A program made the translations under genes and the position numbers. Of a stretch of 64,000 bases of DNA, positions 39,158-47,237 are shown one piece after another. Positions within the stretch are counted from its first letter, which is position 1, and the number at the start of each line of letters is the position of its first letter. The stretch comes from Rufibacter roseolus (GTDB lineage Bacteria > Bacteroidota > Bacteroidia > Cytophagales > Hymenobacteraceae), in assembly GCF_017916365.1 (NCBI RefSeq), contig NZ_JAFMSU010000001.1, positions 2,137,028-2,201,027 of the forward strand, written 5' to 3'. The notes below the pieces were generated by a model, which had not been told where the DNA came from, did not search any database, and saw nothing but the letters and a program-made list of their open reading frames with translations.

Positions 39158-40300
39158 GTGGCTGGTACCGAACCCAAGGATTTCTTTAAGCAGAGAAGGA
39201 GCGCCCCGGAGATCAAGGAAGAGATCTTCCTGAGGTTTTTCACGGTTTGGGCCGAGACGCTTTTCTCTACCCAAACGCCTCCGGAGAAAGTGCTGCTGGT
39301 AGATGCCAGCGCGGGAGCGGCGGGTCCGGAAGAAGGAGGGATGCCTGTGGCTGGAAAGTTGCTGAAGAGCATATTCGCCACCTCGGGCGGGCGCCCGGAC
39401 CTGAACAAAGCCGTGCACCCTTTCTTCTATGAAGGAAACAAAAGCCTGGCCTCGTCGCTCCCGGATGCCCTTGAAAATCTGTTCTTCTACCCAGATCTCC
39501 AGCACAAGCCCGTTTACCTGCAAACGAAAGAAAACCTGGAGGCTTTCCAGGAAGAACTGACCCAGGACGTGCCCGCCCTCTACTTCCTGGATCCCTTCGG
39601 GAACAGGTTCTCGCAGGAACTGTGGCTGCAGGGAATAGGGCAGGAAAATGCTGATTTCCTGATGCTGTTTGAGTACAAACGGTTGGCGGCGGCCTTGGGT
39701 AAAAGTGATGACCAGAGCAATCTGGCGGCTTTCCTGGGAGAAAGGTTCTCCAGGCTTAAAGCGTTTTTCGCCAAAACCAGCAGCGCCGCCAAAAAGGAAA
39801 CCTTCGCCCTGAAAACCCTGGAGGAAGCCCTGCAGGAAAAAGGCCTCCAAACCTCCCGCTTCCGGGTGAACGTGCCGGGCAAAGACCAGAGCAGTCATTA
39901 CCTGTTGTTCCTCTCCAGGAGTTACCTGGCGCATACCCGCTTCAAGGAACTGCTGCTGCCCTACAGCGATGTGCAGGAAGACGGGGTGCCCCTGCTGGGT
40001 GCCAACCTCAAAGCCGTCCGGCTTCTGGTGCCGGAATATTCTAAATACCTGGAGTTCTCGCTCGTGAACCTGGTAGACGACCTGCTGCAGAATGCGGCGG
40101 AGTACAACAGCATGGTGCTGGACAAAATCTACGAGAAGCACAACGTGGGTAAGAACTACTGCAAAGCCAACTACCAGACTGCTTTTGAGAAATTGAAAGA
40201 ACAGGGCAAGATCACGTTGCTGAACCCTAAGACAGGCCAGGTGGTGTACAAACTCACCTCCGCCTGCCGCATTAAATTCAAACCGAACGGGAGCGTGTGA
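39158..40300 (+). CDS. Three-Cys-motif partner protein (TcmP) family
   Basis: 380 residues from a GTG start with AGAAGGAAA upstream. The order of motifs fits TcmP: an N-terminal helix EIKEEIFLRFFTVWAETLF, then KVLLVDASAGAAG (residues 45-56, normally D.FAG.G), FLDPFGNRF (143-151, the family DPFG), a strand ending LMLFEYKRL, the segment SSHYLLFLSRSY near 245, and a C-terminal helical domain. The motif set resembles SAM-methyltransferase-like folds. TcmP genes usually pair with a radical-SAM-like three-Cys-motif gene of the Gp37/Gp68 type. No such partner is here, so this is an orphan. The usual Phe and second Gly of the D.FAG.G motif are changed to Ser and Ala, so activity may be modified. Confidence 0.75.
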   Translation: MAGTEPKDFFKQRRSAPEIKEEIFLRFFTVWAETLFSTQTPPEKVLLVDASAGAAGPEEGGMPVAGKLLKSIFATSGGRPDLNKAVHPFFYEGNKSLASSLPDALENLFFYPDLQHKPVYLQTKENLEAFQEELTQDVPALYFLDPFGNRFSQELWLQGIGQENADFLMLFEYKRLAAALGKSDDQSNLAAFLGERFSRLKAFFAKTSSAAKKETFALKTLEEALQEKGLQTSRFRVNVPGKDQSSHYLLFLSRSYLAHTRFKELLLPYSDVQEDGVPLLGANLKAVRLLVPEYSKYLEFSLVNLVDDLLQNAAEYNSMVLDKIYEKHNVGKNYCKANYQTAFEKLKEQGKITLLNPKTGQVVYKLTSACRIKFKPNGSV

Positions 40301-43604: not shown

Positions 43605-43646
43605 AACAGCAAAGCCTCTCCTAACCGGGAGAGGCTTTGCTGTTTT
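43605..43646 (+). terminator. Strong terminator fused to a palindrome copy
   Basis: 17-base perfect arms AACAGCAAAGCCTCTCC (43605-43621) and GGAGAGGCTTTGCTGTT (43628-43644) followed by T-run. The T-run runs straight into the palindrome-family copy at 43643-43677. Confidence 0.92.
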
Positions 43647-43677
43647 AGGGCTGTTTTGTTGAAAATAGACTCAAAAT
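43643..43677 (+). repeat. Dispersed palindrome copy
   Basis: TTTTAGGGCTGTTTT (43643-43657) faces AAAATAGACTCAAAA (43662-43676). Its left half overlaps the T-run of a classical terminator. Confidence 0.65.
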
Positions 43678-43821
43678 ACTTGGGTATTTAAAGAGGATAG
43701 CCCAGGGCACTACAACAACTGACAAGGGATGTATCCAGGTGCTAAAAATTCTAATTATTTCAATTTCTTAGTCCTTTTTGGAGCAGGATTAATTGCTAAC
43801 TTAATGCACAATTAAATCCCT

Positions 43822-44217
43822 ATGGCCTATACCCTTACAATAAAGGACGAGACTTTCCCAGGGAAAGTGTTGCATCAAATGGAGCTTGCCTTGCAAAACG
43901 AACTGGTTACTGTGAAAGACATCATAGAAGCCAGGGTGACCAAGGAAGTAGAAGATTACAACCAGAAGTTACCCCAATATTTCAGCGGCTTGGTACAGCC
44001 TACTGACACTGAATTAACCATCAACGGTTACAAACTTAAGGAACGAAAGAAGATTGATCCGGAAAAACAGGTATTTGTAGCTTTAAATGCTTTCCAGAAC
44101 AACGGGTACTTTGTATTGGTAGACAACAAACAAGCCGAGTCTTTAGAGGAAGAGGTATTGCTGACCGGTAACACTACGGTGAGTTTCCTGAAATTAACAC
44201 CATTGGTAGGAGGCTGA
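43822..44217 (+). CDS. MoaD/ThiS/ubiquitin-like protein with C-terminal Gly-Gly
   Basis: 131 residues. Strand YTLTIKDE, strand VLHQMELAL, then helix TVKDIIEARVTKEVEDYN follow the beta-grasp order. After an insert (about 50-92), GYFVLVDNKQAESLEEEVLL and TTVSFLKLTPLVGG align by eye with the end of MoaD (strand, V-N-x-x, ...GDEVAFFPPV.GG). The chain stops right after Gly130-Gly131, the tail by which MoaD, ThiS and ubiquitin-like proteins are adenylated, thiolated or conjugated. The fold is a by-eye inference. The codons GGA GGC form the GGAGG ribosome-binding site for the next gene 7 bases on, so the two are translationally coupled. I remember similar proteins next to DUF4132 genes elsewhere. 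No E1, JAB or molybdopterin gene lies nearby. Confidence 0.72.
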   Translation: MAYTLTIKDETFPGKVLHQMELALQNELVTVKDIIEARVTKEVEDYNQKLPQYFSGLVQPTDTELTINGYKLKERKKIDPEKQVFVALNAFQNNGYFVLVDNKQAESLEEEVLLTGNTTVSFLKLTPLVGG

Positions 44218-44220
44218 GAA

Positions 44221-46806
44221 ATGGGGTTTGTTGATTTCATGAAAAAAGCTCTTGGTAAGCAGGAAAGCGTAAGTTTACCTGAAGATTCTTTTGATGGTAT
44301 TGTAGAAGCAGCCCGGTTAGAGGCTGTTCAAAAGTTTCAGCATTTCTGGAATGTTAAGCCGGGTGAGTTAAATGTTTATAAGGAGCAATTAGTCACATTG
44401 CCTGCAGATAGCAAAGTAGACTTCCTGCTGAATTGTATCTATAAGATATATTACTGGCAAAGTAAAAATACTTCGTATAGTTCTGATGATGTGGGGTATC
44501 AGAAGTATGCGCTCCATAATCTGTTTCTACAGGATTTATTAAGATCTAGGCTCACTCTGGCAGATGATCATATTGTTTCTTTGGCAACCCATTTTCTCAA
44601 CTATCAAAAGTTTATTTGGCCTTCAATTTTAGACTGGCCATTAAGCTATTTCTTAATTCAAGTTGAAAAGAATACCAAAGGAAGAGTTATATCTGAATCG
44701 GTAAAAGAAGCCTTATTGGCTATTAAGGATGAGTTAAATAAAGTTGACTATAATTCCCGTGAAAAGGAGAAGACAAAGTCCATTAGCAAAATTGAAGAGT
44801 TACTGCATCTAGGCGAAGGAAAAGAAGAAATAAAACCGGTCTATTTTTTAGGAAAGGATAAATTCTCTGAATATGCCAATCCTATCATCAAGTTAAGATC
44901 AGAGAAGGAACTACCTGTTTGGTATAAAATACTAGCTCAAGTCCAAAGAGCATCTGGTGGAAGACCTACGCAAAAATACCAGAAAGAAAGCCAAACCTTG
45001 ATAAGCACACTAGGAACTGATGCTTTCAAAGAGGTGGTGTTGGATTGGTTTAAATTTATCATCCAACTCAAAGAAAGTGAATTGGTCCAAACGCATACGT
45101 ACGGTACTCAGACGTATAGTTATACAAGTTACGATTTACTTTCAACGCCAAACATAGACGCTATCAAAGGCTTGCTTTGGATGTGTGTTTCCCTAAATGA
45201 TCGTACTGCTTTGGCCACAATTGCTGCGTTGGCAGAAAGGGCATACCGGAAGATTCCGGGTAAGGGTCCGGCCGCTGCCGCTGTTGGAAACGCCTGTTTA
45301 TACGCCCTCTATCAGTCTGAAGGGCTGGAAGGAATCAGCCATTTATCCCGCTTAAAACTGAGAATCAGGCAAGCAAGTACCCAAGCTATGATTGAGAGAT
45401 ATCTGCAGGAGGCAGCCAAAGAACAAGGCATTTCAGTGCATGAGATTGAAGACTTGGCGGTAGACCAATATGAACTGGTAGACGGGCAGAGGGTTTATGA
45501 ACTGGAAGGCTTTAAAGCCATTCTTGATATAGTTGCAGTGGGCAAAACTGAGTTGAGGTGGTTCAAACCAGATGGGAATCCTCAGAAATCAGTACCCACT
45601 GCGGTGAAGGAAAAGCAGGCGGCTGCCCTAAAACAGATCAAGGAAACCGCCAAGCAGGTAGAAGTTACCCTTAGTGCGCAGCGGGACCGCATAGACCGCA
45701 TGTTCAAAGCCGACAGGGTTTTAACCTGGGCTTACTTCCAAAAGTACTATGCCAACCATGGTCTGCTTTCTTTCTTAACCAAGCGCCTGATCTGGTCCTT
45801 TGAGAAAGATGGAGTATCCAAAAACGTCATCTACTTCAATGGAAAATGGGTGCAGCCTGATCTAAGCGAAGTTGAACCAGACTCTGTAATCACTGTGAAA
45901 CTTTGGCATCCTGCTTCTGCTTCGATTTCTGAAATCGAGGCCTGGCGCTCGTTCCTGGTGGAGCACCAGATTCTGCAACCGTTTAAGCAAGCCTATCGTG
46001 AAGTGTACCTGCTTACCGATGCGGAAATTAATACCAGAGTCTACAGCAATCGCATGGCCGCGCATCTCTTAAAACAGCACCAATTCAACTCATTGGCCAA
46101 ACTAAGAGGTTGGAAGTATGCTTTGCTGGGCGCCTATGATGATGGCCGCTACAATGAGGCAGCTTCATGCCTGATCCCTGATTACCACCTTAGAGCCGAG
46201 TATTGGGTGAATGAGGTGGATGCCCAAGGTGAAATGAATGACACCGGTATCTGGAATTACATTGCTACTGACCAACTTCGGTTTGTGGATACCCAGACAA
46301 ACAATGTGGTGGAGTTGATCAACATCCCCAAAGTTATTTTGTCTGAGGTCATGAGGGACGTGGATTTGTTTGTTGGCGTGGCAACCGTAGGCAATGACCC
46401 CAACTGGCAAGACAGTGGGGGAGTAGCTGCCTACCGTGACTACTGGCAAGCGTATTCCTTCGGAGAACTTTCTGAGGTAGCTAAAACCCGGAAAGAGATT
46501 CTGACACAATTGCTTCCGCGCCTGAAGTTGGCCAAAGTAGCAGAGATCAGAGACAAATTCCTGGTTGTCCGTGGCAAACTGCGCACCTATAAGATTCATT
46601 TGGGAAGCACCAATATTCTCATGGAGCCCAATGACCAATACCTATGTATTGTGCCAGACCGCAGCAAAAAAGATGTCACGCAGAATGTTTTCCTGCCTTT
46701 TGAAGGAGACACCGGTTTTTCAGTTATTCTAAGCAAAGCCATGCTTTTGGCTGAGGACGATAAAATTACAGACTCTACTATCACTTCACAGATTAAGCGG
46801 GTCTAA
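44221..46806 (+). CDS. DUF4132 domain protein, partner of the Gly-Gly protein
   Basis: 861 residues, cytoplasmic. The N-terminal half (1-400) is mostly alpha-helical with repeat-like helices (LAERAYRKIPGKGPAAAAVG) and is A+T-richer than its neighbours, hinting at transfer or relaxed selection. DUF4132 covers about 510-760: FEKDGVSKNVIYFNGKW, ITVKLWHP, WRSFLVEHQILQPFKQAYRE, VYLLTDAE, YSNRMAAHLLKQHQF, LRGWKYALLGAYDDG. E. coli MolR/YehI-type proteins share the domain; the molybdate link in that name is old and not firm. No ATPase motif is visible. It starts 3 bases after the upstream stop codon, so the pair is a two-gene operon. Function unknown. Confidence 0.85.
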   Translation: MGFVDFMKKALGKQESVSLPEDSFDGIVEAARLEAVQKFQHFWNVKPGELNVYKEQLVTLPADSKVDFLLNCIYKIYYWQSKNTSYSSDDVGYQKYALHNLFLQDLLRSRLTLADDHIVSLATHFLNYQKFIWPSILDWPLSYFLIQVEKNTKGRVISESVKEALLAIKDELNKVDYNSREKEKTKSISKIEELLHLGEGKEEIKPVYFLGKDKFSEYANPIIKLRSEKELPVWYKILAQVQRASGGRPTQKYQKESQTLISTLGTDAFKEVVLDWFKFIIQLKESELVQTHTYGTQTYSYTSYDLLSTPNIDAIKGLLWMCVSLNDRTALATIAALAERAYRKIPGKGPAAAAVGNACLYALYQSEGLEGISHLSRLKLRIRQASTQAMIERYLQEAAKEQGISVHEIEDLAVDQYELVDGQRVYELEGFKAILDIVAVGKTELRWFKPDGNPQKSVPTAVKEKQAAALKQIKETAKQVEVTLSAQRDRIDRMFKADRVLTWAYFQKYYANHGLLSFLTKRLIWSFEKDGVSKNVIYFNGKWVQPDLSEVEPDSVITVKLWHPASASISEIEAWRSFLVEHQILQPFKQAYREVYLLTDAEINTRVYSNRMAAHLLKQHQFNSLAKLRGWKYALLGAYDDGRYNEAASCLIPDYHLRAEYWVNEVDAQGEMNDTGIWNYIATDQLRFVDTQTNNVVELINIPKVILSEVMRDVDLFVGVATVGNDPNWQDSGGVAAYRDYWQAYSFGELSEVAKTRKEILTQLLPRLKLAKVAEIRDKFLVVRGKLRTYKIHLGSTNILMEPNDQYLCIVPDRSKKDVTQNVFLPFEGDTGFSVILSKAMLLAEDDKITDSTITSQIKRV

Positions 46807-46826
46807 TAAGGGCAGTATTTATAAAG

Positions 46827-46879
46827 CGGGGTGATGTATAGAGGCTGTTTTACAGAAAATAGCCCCTAACATCACCCCG
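46827..46879. repeat. Dispersed palindrome copy
   Basis: CGGGGTGATGT (46827-46837) pairs with ACATCACCCCG (46869-46879); core GAGGCTGTTTT/AAAATAGCCCC. It separates the DUF4132 operon from the convergent QueD-like fragment and can end both. Confidence 0.8.
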
Positions 46880-46895
46880 TTCATTTCCTGATTAG

Positions 46896-47171
46896 TCAAA
46901 TATCCACCGCGTACCACTCCGCAAAAGCGTTCTCGGTTTCCCAGAGCCGGAGGCTGTGTAATTGGGTATCCTCCGGCAGATGCGGTTGCAGTTGGCCTTT
47001 GATGTACAGCAGCAGGTTCTCACAGGTGGTGAGCAGGAGTTTATAGCCATCTTTCCCCAAAACAGAGACAAGCGCCCCAGCACTGTCTGCCCTCAGGAAC
47101 AAAGCGCGATCCCATGAAAATGGCTTATTAAACTGGAGTTTAGGTAAGGTGAAGTGGCGCCTGAGCAACAC
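46896..47171 (-). pseudogene. 6-pyruvoyl-tetrahydropterin synthase/QueD C-terminal fragment
   Basis: 91 codons from GTG. FSWDRALFLRADSAGALV, then LTTCENLLLYIKGQLQPHLP and LRLWETENAFAEWYA match the C-terminal half of PTPS/QueD proteins (the CEN segment is the family's P-T-x-EN motif; the final WET...AEWY is characteristic). The N-terminal half, with the zinc-binding His residues and catalytic Cys, is missing, and a TAA lies ten codons before the GTG. The family is normally 120-170 residues. It is most likely a decayed copy. The intergenic space to the TetR gene on the other strand is about 95 bases and carries the TetR palindrome. Confidence 0.65.
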
Positions 47172-47237
47172 AAACTTTCCTACTTTATTGGATTTGGATT
47201 ACAGAACTTATGAGATTCTTTTCCAATTACTAGGATA

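Follow-up and report, generated by a model that had tools for sequence, protein, structure and literature searches.

The described systems closest to the gene pair analysed here are MoaD and ThiS with their activating enzymes (E1s) MoeB and ThiF, and the Urm1–Uba4, SAMP and TtuB systems, in which a small protein is likewise served by a MoeB-type E1. Further likenesses are found in Bil, type II CBASS and the operon types of Iyer (2006), which join an E1 to a conjugating enzyme (E2) and a JAB protease, and in the MolR/YehI-type proteins of MoxR–VWA clusters, which carry the domain of unknown function DUF4132. The pair lies in a 64,000-nucleotide stretch of Rufibacter roseolus (contig NZ_JAFMSU010000001.1, positions 2,137,028 to 2,201,027 of the forward strand), which as a whole is called the window below, and consists of a small MoaD/Urm1-like protein ending in Gly-Gly and of a DUF4132 protein encoded immediately downstream. 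We have established the family of the small protein, the conservation of its tail, its coupling to DUF4132, an operon that includes an E1 and the co-variation of the tail with a cysteine (Cys809) of the DUF4132 protein. From these comparisons the C-terminus, or its sulfur, most likely reaches Cys809 after adenylation by an E1; the more specific proposal that the E1-activated small protein hands over its C-terminus itself to Cys809 appears to us evenly balanced. The features concerned are, in window coordinates:

43822..44217, + strand, small MoaD/Urm1-like protein of 131 amino acids with C-terminal Gly130-Gly131 (open reading frame (ORF), family alignment, profile match to MoaD)
44209..44214, + strand, terminal Gly-Gly codons GGA GGC, where GGAGG also precedes the next ATG (sequence; comparison of 18 loci)
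44221..46806, + strand, DUF4132 and DUF7737 protein of 861 amino acids (Pfam PF13569 and PF24879; co-occurrence)
45574..46113, + strand, DUF4132 Pfam domain, residues 452-631 (PF13569)
46480..46794, + strand, DUF7737 Pfam domain, residues 754-858 (PF24879)
46645..46647, + strand, codon of Cys809 (..NDQYL-C-IVPD..), the proposed acceptor of the Gly-Gly end (locus-by-locus residue comparison)

The ORFs and Pfam confirm what an earlier note, made from the letters of the window, had claimed: the 131-residue protein ends exactly at Gly-Gly (...SFLKLTPLVGG, stop TGA at 44215-44217) and the ATG of the DUF4132 gene (44221) follows after 3 bases. The 861-residue protein is a DUF4132 family member (PF13569, 140 bits against a curated cut-off of 27; PF24879, 138 bits), and the 131-residue protein has no convincing match to a Pfam, NCBIfam or PADLOC family, with none to PF02597 (MoaD/ThiS) up to E 10. 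In the mechanism that we propose, a ThiF/MoeB-type E1, encoded in the operon or, in the window genome, probably the housekeeping MoeB, would adenylate Gly131, and the activated C-terminus would then form a thioester or acyl disulfide with Cys809, which lies in the DUF7737 part. DUF4132 would so be a dedicated transfer enzyme for the small protein as a whole or for its sulfur. We infer the transfer to Cys809 because Gly-Gly and Cys809 are present or absent jointly.

With MoaD/ThiS and MoeB/ThiF the system shares the Gly-Gly end, the E1 adenylation motifs with an equivalent of ThiF Cys184, and a profile match over the C-terminal third, but the small protein has 131 amino acids, with an apparent extra segment (by eye) ahead of that third, matches neither PF02597 nor a profile of ThiS alone, and has DUF4132 as its partner rather than MoaE or ThiG. 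Like Urm1–Uba4, SAMP and TtuB it combines a MoeB-type E1, no E2 seen beside it and a link to stress, whereas the dedicated large partner with its co-varying cysteine sets it apart. Among solved structures we take 1WGK to be an Urm1 entry. Both 1WGK and SAMP1 (3PO0) resemble the published fold prediction for the homologue DR_A0165 of Deinococcus radiodurans, cited below. The E1–E2–JAB systems share with the pair a predicted ubiquitin-like protein and an operon E1, but no E2 or JAB gene recurs beside the pair (20 loci, neighbours compared mutually, no dedicated search), and the E1 is short and ThiF-like; neither the small protein nor DUF4132 has a PADLOC match, for which reason a known defence system was rejected, and PADLOC E1–E2 profiles match two operon E1s in their N-terminal part only. 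MolR/YehI-type proteins have the DUF4132 domain, but Cys809 is absent and no small protein was found in the stretches fetched (L035, L037 and L088, the last from E. coli K-12). This second DUF4132 context consists of clusters with a MoxR-type ATPase and a VWA protein (L035 4196-8176; L037 4379-8032; yehI, yehL and yehP in L088), and L035 and L037 also encode DUF5682 and SWIM proteins.

In local profile comparisons by hhalign, 26 small proteins matched 26 MoaD/ThiS proteins, taken from genomes carrying the pair, with a probability of 76.9 and a score of 33.1, and the match spanned the C-terminal third with both Gly-Gly ends in register. The highest control scores were 18.3 for 150 column shuffles and 17.6 for 49 windows of DUF4132, a flavin adenine dinucleotide (FAD)-linked oxidase and the E1, and ThiS against MoaD, as a positive control, gave 93.0. 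Variants of the comparison returned 62.1 (MoaD only), 0.2, that is, no match (ThiS only), 32.5 (Gly-Gly members alone) and 23.6 (tails trimmed); an earlier global run had returned 41.8, and 2.2 with the Gly-Gly members alone. On this basis the small protein looks related to MoaD. The structures nearest to the predicted structure of DR_A0165 are given in PMC9650054 as MOCS2, SAMP1 and other molybdopterin-synthase-related structures. The beta-grasp reading of the earlier note is supported, as a predicted fold, by the MoaD profile comparison together with this published prediction. Searches by sequence gave no convincing relative of known structure for either the small protein or DUF4132, and in the searches made DUF4132 had no similarity to E2 enzymes.

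The coupling of the two genes is general. Among 395 genomes of the phylum the small protein occurs in 11 and DUF4132, over the cut-off, in 10, and all 10 are common to both, a pairing far above chance that bears out the recurring neighbourhood expected for the module. The genes are adjacent in 9 of these 10 genomes, one of which (G072) holds two pairs; in G208 their order is reversed, with another gene between them, and in the eleventh genome, G314, the small protein stands beside a 157-residue remnant matching the end of DUF4132. The nearest named relatives are from Rufibacter species, and ten relatives in the genome collection all have tails reading LTPL[VI]GG and DUF4132 directly downstream. 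An exception to the pairing is G888, outside the 395-genome sample, where the small protein is partial and the 13.5 kb fetched gave no DUF4132. In G864 (locus L181), likewise outside the sample, the small protein has diverged strongly (18.6 bits) and its neighbour, of 823 residues, matches DUF4132 proteins weakly, and a search of 195 genomes of the class of G229 returned G229 alone. These comparisons thus support the claim of a carrier or modifier that resembles MoaD, has a conserved Gly-Gly end and is coupled to DUF4132 across phyla.

Gly-Gly at the exact C-terminus, as in MoaD/ThiS, was found in 28 of the 64 small proteins read (the window protein and those of 27 other loci). The other 36 mostly run beyond the Gly-Gly position and end in ..GSYW, ..GTYW, ..GAYW or ..GRLW, with one ..GSYC and two ..FLKNSF/..FLKASF. 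These 36 lie on one side of a branch supported at 99/94 in a tree of the 64 proteins, which is unrooted and whose bootstrap the program calls rough, and Gly-Gly is therefore kept in 28 of 28 proteins outside that group, which come from four phyla; the four Deinococcus Gly-Gly proteins are the nearest relatives of the group and 24 Gly-Gly proteins lie on the other side. In an earlier tree of 29 small proteins (21 with Gly-Gly) the 8 without it had grouped with support 81/82; another 7 Gly-Gly and 20 non-Gly-Gly loci came from 299 genomes of G345's genus, while 236 genomes of G095's family, where 10 of 30 new places were fetched, added 8 readable loci without Gly-Gly. The earlier note had named homologues without the terminal Gly-Gly, or running beyond it, as evidence against its reading; these 36 are in part such evidence, yet all of them belong to a single group, in which a neighbouring E1 and Cys809 are missing as well. 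Two loci of a third tail type (L175 and L176, with the ..FLKNSF/..FLKASF ends) combine a long DUF4132 protein with Tyr in place of Cys809, and one genome, G431, carries both main types, Gly-Gly with an E1 and Cys809 and GSYW with Ser809 (loci L151 and L170).

The region downstream of DUF4132 could be read in 24 Gly-Gly loci, a count without L152 (cut at a contig end) and L117-L119 (not extended). In 12 of them the very next gene encodes an E1 of the ThiF/MoeB type, whereas this holds for none of the 36 non-Gly-Gly loci (0/28 and 0/8). That no E1 adjoins the pair is true of the window, as first noted, but the comparison of loci shows that an E1 does belong to the module. Four of the 12 operon E1s come from Kordia, Flavobacterium or Flavobacteriales, one from a member of the Cyclobacteriaceae and seven from the genus of G345. 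Of six loci checked, five have an E1 start that overlaps the stop of DUF4132 by 1-4 bases, and in the sixth the two are 2 bases apart. The ThiF/MoeB motifs GxGGLG, NLxRQ and DC[TS]D[NQ], with an aligned cysteine, are present in 12 of 12 (four of six further E1s escaped a strict DxTDN pattern but read DCTDQ or DCSDN on alignment). Counted along the alignment, the cysteine of five operon E1s corresponds to position 184 of E. coli ThiF, which we take to be catalytic, while ThiF Cys169 and Cys172, presumably zinc-binding, have no counterpart in these five. PF00899 was found in all four operon E1s scanned. At least one ThiF-family match is present in 15 of 15 whole genomes searched that have the pair and absent from two plasmid records; since 12 of 14 control genomes have one too, its presence in the pair genomes says little by itself. 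The single such match of the window genome is a MoeB with a rhodanese domain, encoded beside molybdopterin genes (MoaC-like, named by eye). Moreover, G201 and G203, which have the operon E1, gave no ThiS or MoaD match, although these genomes may be incomplete, and the small protein is therefore the likely partner of the operon E1.

These E1 data bear directly on the alternative that the small protein is a sulfur carrier, in which Gly131 would be made a thiocarboxylate by the E1 together with a sulfur donor, for instance a rhodanese, DUF4132 would use the sulfur on a small molecule, nucleic acid or protein, and Cys809 would accept sulfur and not the whole protein. The profile kinship with MoaD, the position of ThiF and MoeB as the solved structures nearest to the operon E1s, the rhodanese domain on the only ThiF-family match of the window genome, the failure of any E2 or protease to recur beside the pair and the situation in G201 and G203 all agree with it. 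Yet none of the four operon E1s scanned has a rhodanese domain, the six measured are only 222-248 residues long, and no sulfurtransferase family recurs among the neighbours when these are compared mutually; we consider a role as sulfur carrier possible but rather doubtful.

Position 809, within the DUF7737 part, holds Cys in every readable Gly-Gly locus (27 of 27), the four Deinococcus proteins included. None of the 35 readable non-Gly-Gly loci has Cys there; the residue is Ser in 31 of them, Tyr in 2, Asn in 1 and Ala in 1. Left out of these counts were L152 (contig ends), L084 (157-residue remnant), L181 (divergent at 79 bits and without a residue at this position) and L182 (where DUF4132 was not found); the frame-broken L162 shows Ser in a separate 89-residue fragment, and L174 was counted from a fragment of 138 residues. 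Of 47 columns invariant in the 27 Gly-Gly proteins, only C809 and G349 occur in none of the 33 non-Gly-Gly proteins compared; L152, L162, L174 and L181 did not enter this comparison. The comparison among long forms is the telling one, with GGFL-C in Deinococcus (Gly-Gly) against mostly GKYL-S in non-Gly-Gly proteins; the one Deinococcus DUF4132 protein scanned, that of L033, is a long DUF5724 form. Five DUF4132 proteins with no recognised small-protein neighbour have at this position a gap, a gap, Thr, Phe and Cys.

The non-Gly-Gly group raises the alternative that the small protein is a non-covalent subunit, a structural partner whose tail docks in DUF4132, with Gly-Gly serving the fit and the E1 association being secondary. 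Pairing is kept in that group with neither Gly-Gly nor an adjacent E1, and tail chemistry is therefore not needed for the partnership everywhere; this suggests that the partnership can outlive the chemistry in the GSYW group, where the small protein may still be bound as a subunit. As an account of the whole family, a structural subunit is made quite unlikely by the E1 that directly follows DUF4132 in half of the Gly-Gly loci and in none of the others, and by the absence of Cys809 jointly with that of Gly-Gly. The idea that Gly-Gly is a by-product of the ribosome-binding site shared with the next gene, to which the overlap of GGAGG with the Gly codons in the window lends itself, is exceedingly improbable and was rejected by a codon comparison of 18 Gly-Gly loci from four phyla, 9 of which keep Gly-Gly without GGAGG. 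The overlap of GGA GGC with the GGAGG of the next gene is real, as claimed, yet it is not why Gly-Gly is kept. Since Gly-Gly is invariant in 18 of 18 loci while its codons vary (GGC GGT, GGT GGA etc.), the end appears to be under protein-level constraint, independently of the Shine-Dalgarno overlap.

Several observations weigh against the transfer of an E1-activated C-terminus to Cys809. Because all non-Gly-Gly proteins lie on one branch, the link between tail and cysteine is at heart one joint change, and tail and residue may have altered jointly in a single event; the loci counted are not independent of one another, and the Fisher values take no account of kinship. The residues around C809 are hydrophobic (YLCIV) and its role could be structural, and an unpaired Nonomuraea DUF4132 protein (L031) has the cysteine, with no small protein in the 15.4 kb fetched; the same Nonomuraea record holds a Gly-Gly pair elsewhere. 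Half of the Gly-Gly loci with the downstream region in view, the window among them, lack an adjacent E1, and the missing recurrence of an E2 or deconjugating protease beside the pair (in the 20 loci mentioned above) belongs here too. In the E1 tree, six operon E1s split from 14 housekeeping E1s at 84/96, below the starred level, and this grouping appeared only after ten rows had been dropped (duplicates L049, L051, L052, L056 and L064; long or aberrant L050, L057, L058, L065 and L066); it was absent from the 30-row tree because the five duplicate copies counted as outsiders and long branches joined. Additionally, deletion of DR_A0165 raises resistance to hydrogen peroxide (H2O2), according to PMC9650054.

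In D. radiodurans (locus L033) the pair is present as annotated genes, and a DdrO operator lies at 2930-2949 of that locus, 82 bases upstream of the small gene. Since an operator is listed at -83 upstream of DRA0165 (PMC8533742), this pair is DRA0165–DRA0166. The same source reports that the operon is up-regulated on DdrO depletion and that DRA0166 accumulates with mitomycin in an IrrE-dependent manner. According to PMC9650054, DR_A0165 binds the thioredoxin DR_A0164, no such operator was found for DR_A0165 and the protein is described as confined to Deinococcus; both of the latter statements disagree with the operator and the cross-phylum homologues found here. Considering the published induction of the D. 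radiodurans pair by DNA damage, the product of the pair is probably part of a stress response. Upstream of the two copies in G072 lie an S24-peptidase protein (one copy) and a UmuC-like polymerase (the other; L018 5069-5959, L019 4919-6211), with phage-type integrases nearby. Such neighbours, typical of DNA-damage responses, would fit the DNA-damage link, albeit at two loci of one genome only. No shared regulatory palindrome was seen upstream of 15 Bacteroidota copies.

The neighbours of the pair in the window, where eight proteins were scanned, are ordinary: upstream an oxidoreductase, a winged-helix protein and an FAD-linked oxidase, downstream a short ORF resembling 6-pyruvoyl tetrahydropterin synthase (PTPS), a TetR regulator and a thioesterase. 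No E2 or JAB gene is among these eight proteins, and no search aimed at E2 or JAB was made. The PTPS-like ORF (46896-47171, - strand, 91 residues) matches only the C-terminal part of PTPS (PF01242) and is perhaps a remnant. The winged-helix protein (39158-40300, + strand) is GMT-like (PF22560), and a similar protein lies upstream, by eye, in the Rufibacter relatives L002 and L003. Within the genus of the window the small protein occurs in 3 of 16 genomes, and the congeneric G406 (locus L121) has an empty site in which 29 bases replace window positions 43639-47210, that is, the pair and the PTPS-like ORF; the pair is therefore accessory, gained or lost as one unit. This patchiness and the empty site agree with the mobility surmised at the outset, but no recombinase was found among the window neighbours scanned. 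A phage or viral origin was rejected, with no relative of the small protein in viral contigs and no phage match for DUF4132.

Finally, considering novelty, the passages on DUF4132 consulted in the literature covered, which excludes most subscription papers and all bioRxiv preprints, link it to no E1 or ubiquitin-like protein, and DUF5724, DUF5682, DUF5691 and DUF7737 are not mentioned in that literature. Nor was such a system found in the accessible portions of the literature on prokaryotic ubiquitin-like/E1 operons, including PMC1779556 and PMC7159879. No known activity of DUF4132 was found, though the family spans several phyla and includes YehI of E. coli. We suggest, tentatively and as an unlikely extension of the proposal, that DUF4132/DUF7737 proteins may be a new class of ubiquitin-like transfer enzyme unrelated to E2s, which, following DNA damage or oxidative stress, would move a MoaD-like protein from a ThiF-type E1 via Cys809 onto proteins of the cell; such a pathway would span at least four phyla and include D. 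radiodurans. The conserved tail, the co-varying cysteine and the E1 point to an unrecognised protein-tagging or sulfur-transfer pathway. The DUF4132 family thereby acquires a partner protein, a cysteine predicted to be catalytic and a reaction open to testing, and DR_A0165, described as Deinococcus-only, now falls into a Gly-Gly family that crosses phyla, while its host offers the tools for a test. If the tail is conjugated, this would be a ubiquitin-like pathway tied to DNA damage, with a transfer enzyme unlike known E2s.

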